Shown here piece by piece: positions 2,702-52,972 of a stretch of DNA of 64,000 nucleotides. Position 1 is the first letter of the stretch, and every line of letters starts with the position of its first letter. The DNA is taken from assembly GCA_035628995.1 (NCBI GenBank), contig DASPIR010000023.1, positions 310,001 through 374,000 on the forward strand, given 5' to 3'. Below the pieces are notes generated by a model that had not been told where the DNA came from, searched no databases, and was given only the letters and a program-made list of their open reading frames with translations. The DNA comes from Clostridia bacterium (lineage in GTDB: Bacteria; Bacillota; Clostridia; Lutisporales; Lutisporaceae). The position numbers and the translations under genes were made by a program.

Positions 2702-2796
2702 GTTACGCGTTTCGGGTTTCGCGTTACGCGTATATTAGGGTGATTCTTCGAAGCCCTACTAAAATGCTCGCAACTCGTAACTCGTAACTCGCAACC
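2702..2796. repeat. Heptad repeat element, copy 1
   Basis: Left array (2702-2730): four 7-base units GTTACGC, GTTTCGG, GTTTCGC, GTTACGC plus G. Right array (2767-2796): four units CTCGCAA, CTCGTAA, CTCGTAA, CTCGCAA plus CC, which is the inverse orientation of GTTNCGN. The 36-base spacer contains TTCTTCGAAGCC. The same layout recurs at 39819-39918 and, shortened, at 51514-51548. The remaining intergenic bases on either side (2561-2904) hold the rpsB promoter/leader and the operon terminator; I see no gene. Confidence 0.9.
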
Positions 2797-39265: not shown

Positions 39266-39796
39266 CTATAATTCTTCAACCATTATGTTGTTATTAGTGA
39301 AAACGCAGATGGAAGCAGCTATTTCCAAGGATTTTCTCACAACCTCACTTGGTGAAAGATCAGTGTTCTGAGTCAATGCCTTTGCTGCAGCCAATGCATA
39401 ATTGCCTCCTGAACCAATTGCAATTACACCATCATCTGGTTCTATTACCTCTCCGCTTCCTGATATAACAAGAAGTGTATCGCTGTCCAGTGCTATAAGC
39501 ATAGCCTCCAGATTCCTCAGTACTTTATCGCTTCTCCATTCCTTTGCAAGCTCTACAGCTGCTCTTTTGAGATTGCCGCTGTGCTGCTCCAGCTTTTCCT
39601 CCAGCCTCTCTGCCAAGGTAAAAGCGTCGGAAACCGAGCCTGCAAAACCTACAATTACCTTGCCCCCAAACAAACGCCTGACCTTTTTGGCAGTTGATTT
39701 AATTATTGTACTCTGACTCATGGTCACCTGTCCGTCACCGGCTATGGCGCCTTTGCCATCTCTTTTGACTGCTGCTATTGTTGTACCATGAAACAT
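39266..39796 (-). CDS. hslV: ATP-dependent protease peptidase subunit HslV
   Basis: 176 aa threonine peptidase. The N-terminus [25 protein letters not shown] suggests a short propeptide (MFHG) removed to expose Thr5 as nucleophile, the usual Firmicutes form (not the serine of CodW). First gene of the hslVU-codY unit; heptad repeat copy 2 lies 22 bases upstream of the ATG. Confidence 0.95.
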
Positions 39797-39818: not shown

Positions 39819-39918
39819 GTTTCGCGTTTCGCGTTTCGGGTTTCGCGTTACGCGAATCGGGTTAGTTCTTCGAAGCCATTCCAACATACTCGCAACTCGT
39901 AACTCGCAACTCGCAACC
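39819..39918. repeat. Heptad repeat element, copy 2
   Basis: Left array (39819-39854): five 7-base units GTTTCGC, GTTTCGC, GTTTCGG, GTTTCGC, GTTACGC plus G. Right array (39889-39918): CTCGCAA, CTCGTAA, CTCGCAA, CTCGCAA plus CC. The 34-base spacer contains TTCTTCGAAGCC, identical to copy 1. It fills most of the 259-base trmFO-hslV gap; the rest holds the trmFO terminator and AT-rich sequence where the hslV promoter may lie, with no clear -35/-10 pair. Confidence 0.9.
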
Positions 39919-40006
39919 AAATTCTATATATTGCTCAATAATGATTATTTTCTAATTTTTGATGAGTAATTAATTTTCATAAACGTTACAATATTCATAA
40001 AAATCA

Positions 40007-51513: not shown

Positions 51514-51548
51514 GGTTGCGCGTTTCGCGTTACGCGTAACTCGCAACC
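51514..51548. repeat. Heptad repeat element, copy 3 (short form)
   Basis: 35 bases: units GTTGCGC, GTTTCGC, GTTACGC run straight into TAACTCGCAACC, without the spacer seen in copies 1 and 2. Ends GGTTGCG / CGCAACC are complementary and the centre GTTACGCGTAAC is a perfect palindrome. It lies between the dipeptidase stop and the infC -35. Confidence 0.85.
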
Positions 51549-51565
51549 GGACCCTATAGGAATAC

Positions 51566-52972
51566 CTACTTGACAAGCTCATATATCGCTTCGGCATATA
51601 TCTTAGTGCTCTTGATCAAATCCTCGACGTCTATGAACTCATCCTTCTGATGCGCGGTTTCTTCCTTCCCCGGGAATAAAGGGCCGAAGGCTACTGCATT
51701 TTTTATAGCTCTGGCATAAGTGCCTCCGCCTATAGATATAAGCTCTGGCTTTTGCCCTGTCACATCCTCGTATACCTTTTGCAGAATCTTTATCATAAAG
51801 TTGTCTGCAGGTACATAAAGTGGATCCTTTTCATCGCCCTCTATTAGTCTGATGCCAGAAGAAATTTTATTCTTGATTATATCATATACATCGTTCCTAG
51901 TCCTGGTTACAGGATACCTGATGTTTATTCCTACGCTGCCCTTCTCTTCCGTCATATCTATTGTCCCCAGATTGAAAACCAGCTTTCCTGAAACTTCATC
52001 ACTCATTGCAACTCCGAAGGATGTGCCGTCCACTTCCATTCCTATATGCTCATTAAGAAAATTGATGTAAGCAGTCTGTTCTGATACGCAAAGAGGAAGT
52101 TTGCAGATGCATGAAATAAGCTGCGAAATTGCATTTGTTCCCTTGCCTGGGGTACTCCCATGGGCAGAAAGACCGAAGGATTTGAGAATGCATTTGTCGT
52201 TGTCTACTATTAGTTCAAGTTTTGCATTCACTTTATCCTTCATATATTCTACTGTCTTTTGGATTCTTTCAGTAAAATCCTTCTTCATTTCCAGTTCGCA
52301 CTCACAGTAATCGGGAACCATGTTGACCTTGTTGCCTCCATGCATGCGTTTTATTCTTAAACCGTCGCAGCAGGTCTCGTTATTTTCCTCAAACTCTTTT
52401 TCCAGGTTGAATATTAGTATTCCCATTTCGCTGTTGATTATCGGAAAATCAGCATCTGGTGAAAAACCGCACATAGGCATGGAAGCATGCTTAAAATAGT
52501 GCTTCATGCAAGCCCATCTGCCGCTCTCTTCATCACAGCCAACAATAATCCTTACTCTTCTGTTGAATTTCATTCCCGAATCCATTACTGCCTTCAATCC
52601 ATATATTGCAGCCACAGCAGGGCCTTTATCGTCAATGGTGCCCCTGCCGAATATTTTATCGTCGACTATTTCAGCTGCATATGGATCATGGGACCATCCG
52701 GAACCCTCAGGAACAACATCAACATGGACAAGTATCCCTACTATGTCATCACCGTCGCCATATTCGGCATGTCCTGCAAAGCCATCAAAACTTTCGGTTC
52801 TGAAACCCAGATCTTTGCATATTTCAAGTGTTCTATCAAGGCATTTTCTTACCTCTGCCCCGAAAGGAGCACCAGACTCCGGCTTTGTTTCAACACTTTT
52901 TATTTTGACAAGCTCTTGAGTGGTTTTTATTATGTCACTCTGCATGGACTCAACAATTTTATCAAATCTCAT
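51566..52972 (-). CDS. pepV: M20 family dipeptidase (PepV/Sapep type)
   Basis: 468 aa metallopeptidase. Metal ligands in VGILVHVDVVPEGSGW (His), GRGTIDDKGPAVAAIY (Asp) and GCDEESGRW (Glu pair), with a later His near GGTYARAIKN. Acts on dipeptides in the cytoplasm. GAGAGGG is 9 bases before the ATG at 52972. It follows the second permease by 60 bases, so it may process what the transporter imports; the link is inferred. Confidence 0.9.
   Translation of the reverse strand: MRFDKIVESMQSDIIKTTQELVKIKSVETKPESGAPFGAEVRKCLDRTLEICKDLGFRTESFDGFAGHAEYGDGDDIVGILVHVDVVPEGSGWSHDPYAAEIVDDKIFGRGTIDDKGPAVAAIYGLKAVMDSGMKFNRRVRIIVGCDEESGRWACMKHYFKHASMPMCGFSPDADFPIINSEMGILIFNLEKEFEENNETCCDGLRIKRMHGGNKVNMVPDYCECELEMKKDFTERIQKTVEYMKDKVNAKLELIVDNDKCILKSFGLSAHGSTPGKGTNAISQLISCICKLPLCVSEQTAYINFLNEHIGMEVDGTSFGVAMSDEVSGKLVFNLGTIDMTEEKGSVGINIRYPVTRTRNDVYDIIKNKISSGIRLIEGDEKDPLYVPADNFMIKILQKVYEDVTGQKPELISIGGGTYARAIKNAVAFGPLFPGKEETAHQKDEFIDVEDLIKSTKIYAEAIYELVK

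Follow-up and report, generated by a model that had tools for sequence, protein, structure and literature searches.

Opposed heptad arrays form a dispersed palindromic element in the intergenic DNA of a Lutisporaceae bacterium

In a Clostridia bacterium of the family Lutisporaceae, the 5' leader of hslV contains two arrays of 7-base repeats that face each other across a short spacer. What is this unit, and by which route did it reach the leader? Coordinates without a contig name refer here to the window, that is, the whole stretch of 64,000 nucleotides that was analysed (C23:310001-374000 of the host assembly G000, which comprises 3.65 Mb in 35 contigs). The element lies at 39819-39917 and, read directly from the sequence, comprises a B-type arm of five heptads on the plus strand (GTTTCGC GTTTCGC GTTTCGG GTTTCGC GTTACGC; 39819-39853), a 36-bp spacer (39854-39889) carrying the central palindrome CTTCGAAG at 39868-39875, and an A-type arm of four heptads that reads GTTGCGA GTTGCGA GTTACGA GTTGCGA on the minus strand (39890-39917). 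A weak remnant of an outer motif, GGGTATTCCTATAGGGTATG in better copies, follows on the minus strand (39918-39937; the match of the half-element model reaches 39928). The gene hslV itself (39266-39796, minus strand) has its start codon and Shine-Dalgarno sequence just downstream of the element, and the copy is flanked by this Shine-Dalgarno and by a promoter-like TTGAAA...TATATT that is conserved in congeners.

A second copy is found at 2702-2795. Its B-type arm has four heptads (2702-2729, plus strand), its 38-bp spacer (2730-2767) holds CTTCGAAG at 2746-2753, and its A-type arm has four inverted heptads (2768-2795, minus strand). Next to it, the line-up of arms and the half-element model place an outer motif whose minus strand reads GGCATTCGTATAGAGGATTG (2796-2815). 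The original prediction had proposed that the sites at 2.7 and 39.8 kb share a design of opposed arrays, with four and five units in the left arm and an identical sequence in the spacer, and direct reading of both sites bears this out, TTCTTCGAAGCC being present in each. The spacer length it gave, 34-36 bases, holds at 39.8 kb and falls short at 2.7 kb. Both of its sites exist, and it overlooked a third, collapsed copy at 51515-51548, in which three plus-strand heptads abut two inverted ones and spacer and centre are absent; the outer motif of this copy is well kept and reads GGTATTCCTATAGGGTCCG on the minus strand (51549-51567; from the sequence and the arm line-up). Overall, the double-heptad pattern GTTNCGNGTTNCG matches 16 times in the window, for 0.01 matches expected from shuffles. 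The observation behind the prediction is confirmed, and its interpretation is partly supported.

The copies of the window belong to a larger set. Triple-heptad GTTNCGN strings occur 132 times in the whole genome (64 and 68 on the two strands) and the reversed control pattern 0 times, a sequence-only profile of the half-element gives at least 94 matches, and the family comprises at least 45 loci in the host genome. A dispersed family, to be sought by such a genome-wide pattern count, is what had been predicted. Examination of stretches around host elements gave 46 intergenic loci, and samples of congener contigs served for comparison. Arms lined up from about 45 element loci define a full element of about 130-150 bp, an imperfect palindrome made of two halves placed head to head. 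From the outside inward, each half carries the outer motif, about four inward-pointing GTTNCGN heptads, 13-15 poorly conserved bp and one half of CTTCGAAG. The exact CTTCGAAG centre is common to 16 of the 19 tabulated compact copies, and the arms stand 34-39 bp apart in nearly all compact copies, with a minority of long-spacer or solo copies that vary. The outer motif is in inverted orientation and usually well kept at one end only; it adjoins arrays at many host loci and is present also in another genus (G011). The heptads are degenerate and run head to tail without spacers between them, in agreement with the earlier view that this is not a CRISPR.

The two arms are not equivalent. Each of 21 compact copies combines a type A arm (GTTRCGA) with a type B arm (GTTWCGC or GTTWCGG), a pairing expected with p about 5e-7 if types were combined at random. 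At position 4, type A carries A or G and type B carries T or A; at position 7, type A carries A and type B carries C, G, or T (61 of 76 for type A, 80 of 81 for type B). The fixed contrast between arms at these two positions, first seen at two sites, thus holds genome-wide among these copies. A third arm type, ending in GTTGCGC, is seen in long-spacer and one-armed copies. Arms mostly have four units. Positions 1, 2, 3, 5, and 6 of the heptad are conserved at 93-99% and positions 4 and 7 are free, whereas spacers are close to random, 56-59% of their positions differing between copies vs. 71% for shuffled spacers. Such a contrast is what would be expected of binding sites recruited by the host, in which each heptad would bind one monomer of a nucleoid protein or global regulator, each pair of arrays would form a loop or a cruciform, and selection locus by locus would keep the cores while the spacers drift. 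The paired arrays of Geobacter metallireducens, read as regulator sites and proposed as putative IHF/HU-type sites (PMC2700814), also favor this view, which we nevertheless hold to be unlikely: the genes next to the copies have no common theme, and, as described below, copies are missing at orthologous sites and the heptad word changes between congeners, a difference that would be hard for a conserved protein to accommodate.

Could the palindrome act as a folded RNA? Both strands can form a long mismatched hairpin, and the position of the hslV copy between promoter-like sequence and Shine-Dalgarno, together with the prevalence of codirectional gaps among the copies, would suit selection for a regulatory or processing hairpin in the leaders and intercistronic parts of mRNAs. 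However, a stable RNA fold was dismissed on z-scores of only -0.7 to -3.0, weakly better than shuffles, and no Rfam family matches above its gathering score. The spacers have no compensatory pattern: their halves are no more complementary within a copy than between copies (p=0.62; p=0.45 and 0.84 when G.U pairs are allowed), so that a hairpin maintained by paired spacers, as RNA or single-stranded DNA, was also dismissed. Moreover, inspection gave about 13 copies facing one way and 9 the other with respect to transcription, and a strand bias was discarded on this count. An RNA function therefore appears very improbable. Mantel tests across copies likewise give no co-variation between A arms, B arms, and spacers (all not significant). 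With neither within-copy complementarity nor co-variation, the palindrome has been inherited from a common design rather than maintained pair by pair.

The placement of the copies is not that of intergenic DNA in general. With gene context taken from simple ORF calls, 40 of the 46 loci lie between codirectional genes, 5 between divergent and 1 between convergent genes, vs. 44, 13, and 16 among 73 further gaps measuring at least 60 bp on the same stretches (codirectional excess, p=0.002; convergent depletion, p=0.002). The upstream stop codon is within 31 bp for 23 of the 40 codirectional copies, at 20-31 bp for 14 of these, and 20-31 bp is the room that the outer motif needs.

One pair of copies documents the duplication of a whole unit. 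The elements at C9:108.6k and C9:110.4k, 1.8 kb apart, have 97.5% identity over 119 bp, and an 18-bp outer end is the same in both, whereas their outer flanks are unrelated, at background identity (48% and 29%). The copied unit is complete, including a second palindrome lodged inside it. Only this pair is near-identical, and recent cloning of all copies from one master was rejected on the null Mantel tests; the lack of co-variation between arms and spacers means that most copies do not descend recently from a single master. The C9 pair also bears on a mechanism devoid of any transposition, in which the arrays would arise locally by seven-base replication slippage, with hairpin template switching between arms. 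Heptads are described as over-represented among bacterial repeats and slippage is proposed as their origin in two reports (PMC4692102, PMC4679880). Slippage does not readily account for a whole unit duplicated between unrelated flanks, for identical 28-bp arrays present in different flanks, or for the recurrence at unrelated loci of outer motif, arm types, spacer length, and CTTCGAAG; spacer halves no more complementary within a copy than between copies speak against template switching as well. We regard this mechanism as improbable.

Comparison with congeners provides empty sites. The hslV leader is without insert in all three testable congeners, whose HslV proteins are 86-88% identical. Other orthologous gaps were located with the coding flanks of the copies as queries. 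They are empty or nearly so at C10:108k in G003 and G005, at C29:30.5k, C23:584k, C8:128.8k, and C30:59k in G004, and at C34:242k in G003. No target-site duplication is visible, the intergenic DNA of the congeners being too diverged to fix the junctions at empty sites. At several other loci the gap in congeners is not empty and holds another heptad array or a CTTCGAAG core with different arms. The check for empty sites suggested in the original prediction thus has a double outcome, inserts being absent at several congener loci and other arrays or cores being present at others. Since some congener sites are occupied in this manner, the insertions are not cleanly dated, and sharing of sites or hot spots also occurs at several loci.

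Congeners have sites with the same centre and other heptad words. Cores of the CTTCGAAG type carry period-7 arms of the words GATACGA and AGTCGCT in G005, AGTCGCT arms in G004, and GGCTATG and GACACGA arms in G002. Over 12 such sites, self-similarity is 0.38 at lag 7, vs. 0.21-0.28 at lags 4-6 and 8-12. Several are at positions orthologous to host copies: C8:128.8k in G005, C30:59k and C21:55.8k in G002, and C34:242k in G002 and, as judged by the arm, in G005. At C33:167.6k, three congeners have a plain ATCTGGC heptad array. At G001:C44:20691-20751, a core with CTTCAAAG has arm repeats of period 8 (GGTTACGA) instead of 7. An expansion wholly private to the host species had been considered and was dropped once the congeners were searched by the centre rather than by the GTTNCGN word. 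Word turnover around a constant core, or reuse of the same gaps, weakens the case for a purely recent burst. That the period stays at 7 while the word differs between congeners is a point in favor of slippage.

A unit that is multicopy and intergenic, absent from several orthologous congener sites, copied once as a whole and endowed with conserved cis parts is probably a non-autonomous, MITE/REPIN-like interspersed palindrome, moved by a candidate trans-acting enzyme. This enzyme would recognize the palindromic centre together with the heptad arrays and their polarity, and would place the unit, by copying or insertion, in gaps between genes, for the most part immediately after the stop codons of operon genes. 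Recognition of this kind would keep the heptad cores and the centre and let the rest drift. After insertion, mRNA leaders and intercistronic regions would contain the unit as a weak hairpin with regular mismatches, and effects on neighbouring genes, if any, would be secondary.

The search for a mobilizing gene at the loci examined returned ordinary genes between copies. Phosphotransferase-type kinases, YabG, an NTP transferase, CTP synthase, and one protein without Pfam match were considered as cargo or transposase and set aside, and no autonomous transposon with the same ends was found among these loci. A RAYT was also rejected as mobilizer, both Y1_Tnp genes being flanked by other palindromes without GTTNCG arrays: GGGCGAACANTGTTCGCCC for the gene at C30:165915 and GGGACAAGGTACCTGTCCC-type palindromes for that at C8:73673. 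Upstream of the latter gene, a fragment of its 5' end is present in duplicate. GGGCGAACANTGTTCGCCC is a second dispersed palindrome, found at 52 places in the genome with at most one mismatch, often after GTAG. It is clustered around the RAYT-like Y1-transposase gene (G000:C30:165100-166257), and copies of it are also lodged within or beside the heptad elements at C9:108.6k, C9:110.4k, C10:29.8k, C22:42.0k, and C23:451.4k. Some one-armed copies or cores run directly into CACGGAATTACACGGAT- or CCACTGAATGCACTGA-type repeats (L059, L073, and L075 in the host, L421 in G003). The latter arrangement suggests that different kinds of intergenic repeat pile up at shared sites.

How far does the element extend beyond the host? 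The half-element profile has 0-4 weak matches in congeners and 22 in a different genus of the same family. Across the class, 5 of 196 genomes have matches, all within the family, and no match was found outside it among these 196 genomes. In genus g7 (G011, G014, G016, G018, G020), intergenic mosaics are observed in which GGGTATTCCTTTAGGGTCTTG recurs between heptad arrays of several words, along with CACGGATT-type repeats; at these loci, chosen for their arrays, there are 43 arrays of period 7 vs. at most 6 for other periods. The bare heptad word is more widely distributed. Exact strings of five GTTNCGN heptads were found in at least 117 stretches of species genomes, the matches listed including Chloroflexota, Bacteroidota, Desulfobacterota, Gammaproteobacteria, Cloacimonadota, and others, and a four-heptad scan of IMG/VR viral contigs gave 92 stretches. 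Among the matches listed, most arrays outside the family are one-armed, and 92 of 243 arrays are monomorphic; occurrence in many phyla, often in uniform arrays, is again in line with slippage.

When oppositely oriented arrays do lie within 140 bp of each other, one of them with at least four units, they mostly converge. Among the matches listed, convergent and divergent pairs outside the family number 13 and 0 in genomes and 7 and 2 in viral contigs, hence 20 to 2 in total over unrelated genomes and viral contigs, and the two divergent cases are near-copies of each other. Some of the viral convergent pairs have gaps of only 8-31 bp. The CTTCGAAG unit is absent from the pairs listed from genomes and viral contigs. 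That neighbouring arrays converge and do not diverge means that polarity matters, which would suit binding sites as well, and the 20 to 2 bias in unrelated genomes suggests a shared mechanism that reads direction. We propose, tentatively, that convergent short-period arrays are one widespread palindromic class defined by its architecture, with a constant core and inward 7-base arrays. Words would be swapped between species (GTTNCGN, GATNCGA, AGTCGCT, or GGCTATG around CTTCGAAG), period and polarity would be kept, and a copying or conversion machinery would ensure uniformity within a genome.

Known repeat systems share some of these features. The short tandem heptamer repeats of heterocystous cyanobacteria are mainly direct arrays and are not known to have a palindromic composite unit, unlike the host element with its outer motif, centre, and opposed arms. 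The likeness to them that had been predicted stands at the level of the class, as heptamer arrays scattered in intergenic DNA and sporadic across distant taxa, a description that also fits the TAACTGA arrays of Beggiatoaceae; arrays of Xanthomonas and G. metallireducens are closer precedents. The TAACTGA arrays are mainly direct, with one inverted case among 170 in Maribeggiatoa (PMC4679880).

In Xanthomonas, 183-186 arrays of GGGAATC / (GGGANTN)n heptameric repeats are described per genome, with a mode of four units; about 90% are intergenic, the mean distance to the upstream gene is 28 nt, the neighbouring genes are mostly codirectional, and two convergent arrays stand side by side in 70-75 cases (Rehm et al. 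2015, PMC4692102). The host element resembles this type in its tandem 7-nt unit, of which five positions are fixed and two are free and which is usually repeated four times, and in its intergenic copies near the upstream gene with arrays in convergent pairs. The likeness is structural only, since GTTNCGN has no G-run or quadruplex potential, and the text consulted on Xanthomonas mentions neither a conserved centre or outer motif nor handed arms or empty sites.

In G. metallireducens, classes 1-3 and the H4 family are short tandem arrays (8-mers, the heptanucleotide MTYCTGA, or four GGACCGG heptads), and the site classes are mostly paired on opposite strands (PMC2700814), as in the host. They differ by their words, by the variable inter-site distance of classes 1-2, not shared by the compact host copies (34-39 bp in nearly all cases), and by the GGACCGG family being found inside genes as well. 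The BrickBuilt MITE of Porphyromonas gingivalis is likewise MITE-like and intergenic with a tandem-array body, but has one-direction 23-bp units with a leader and a tail and no opposed heptad arms (PMC4596501). Finally, REP/REPIN sequences are, like the present element, dispersed intergenic imperfect palindromes without a gene of their own. In contrast, the GTTNCGN element does not flank a RAYT gene, the REPs of the RAYT-like gene here being GGGCGAACANTGTTCGCCC.

In the open-access literature, we found neither this sequence nor a composite unit that combines an outer motif with a centre, and no description of arm handedness or of heptad words exchanged while the core stays the same. The class itself is already known from Xanthomonas, Geobacter, cyanobacteria, and Beggiatoaceae, and is unexplained, its intergenic heptad arrays having been reported separately in each group without an account of their spread or role. 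New here are the composite unit, the handedness of its arms, the empty sites, and the turnover of words around a constant core. With a dense family, defined ends, empty sites, one clear duplication, and word-exchanged congeners, the host genome makes mobility, polarity, and word turnover testable.
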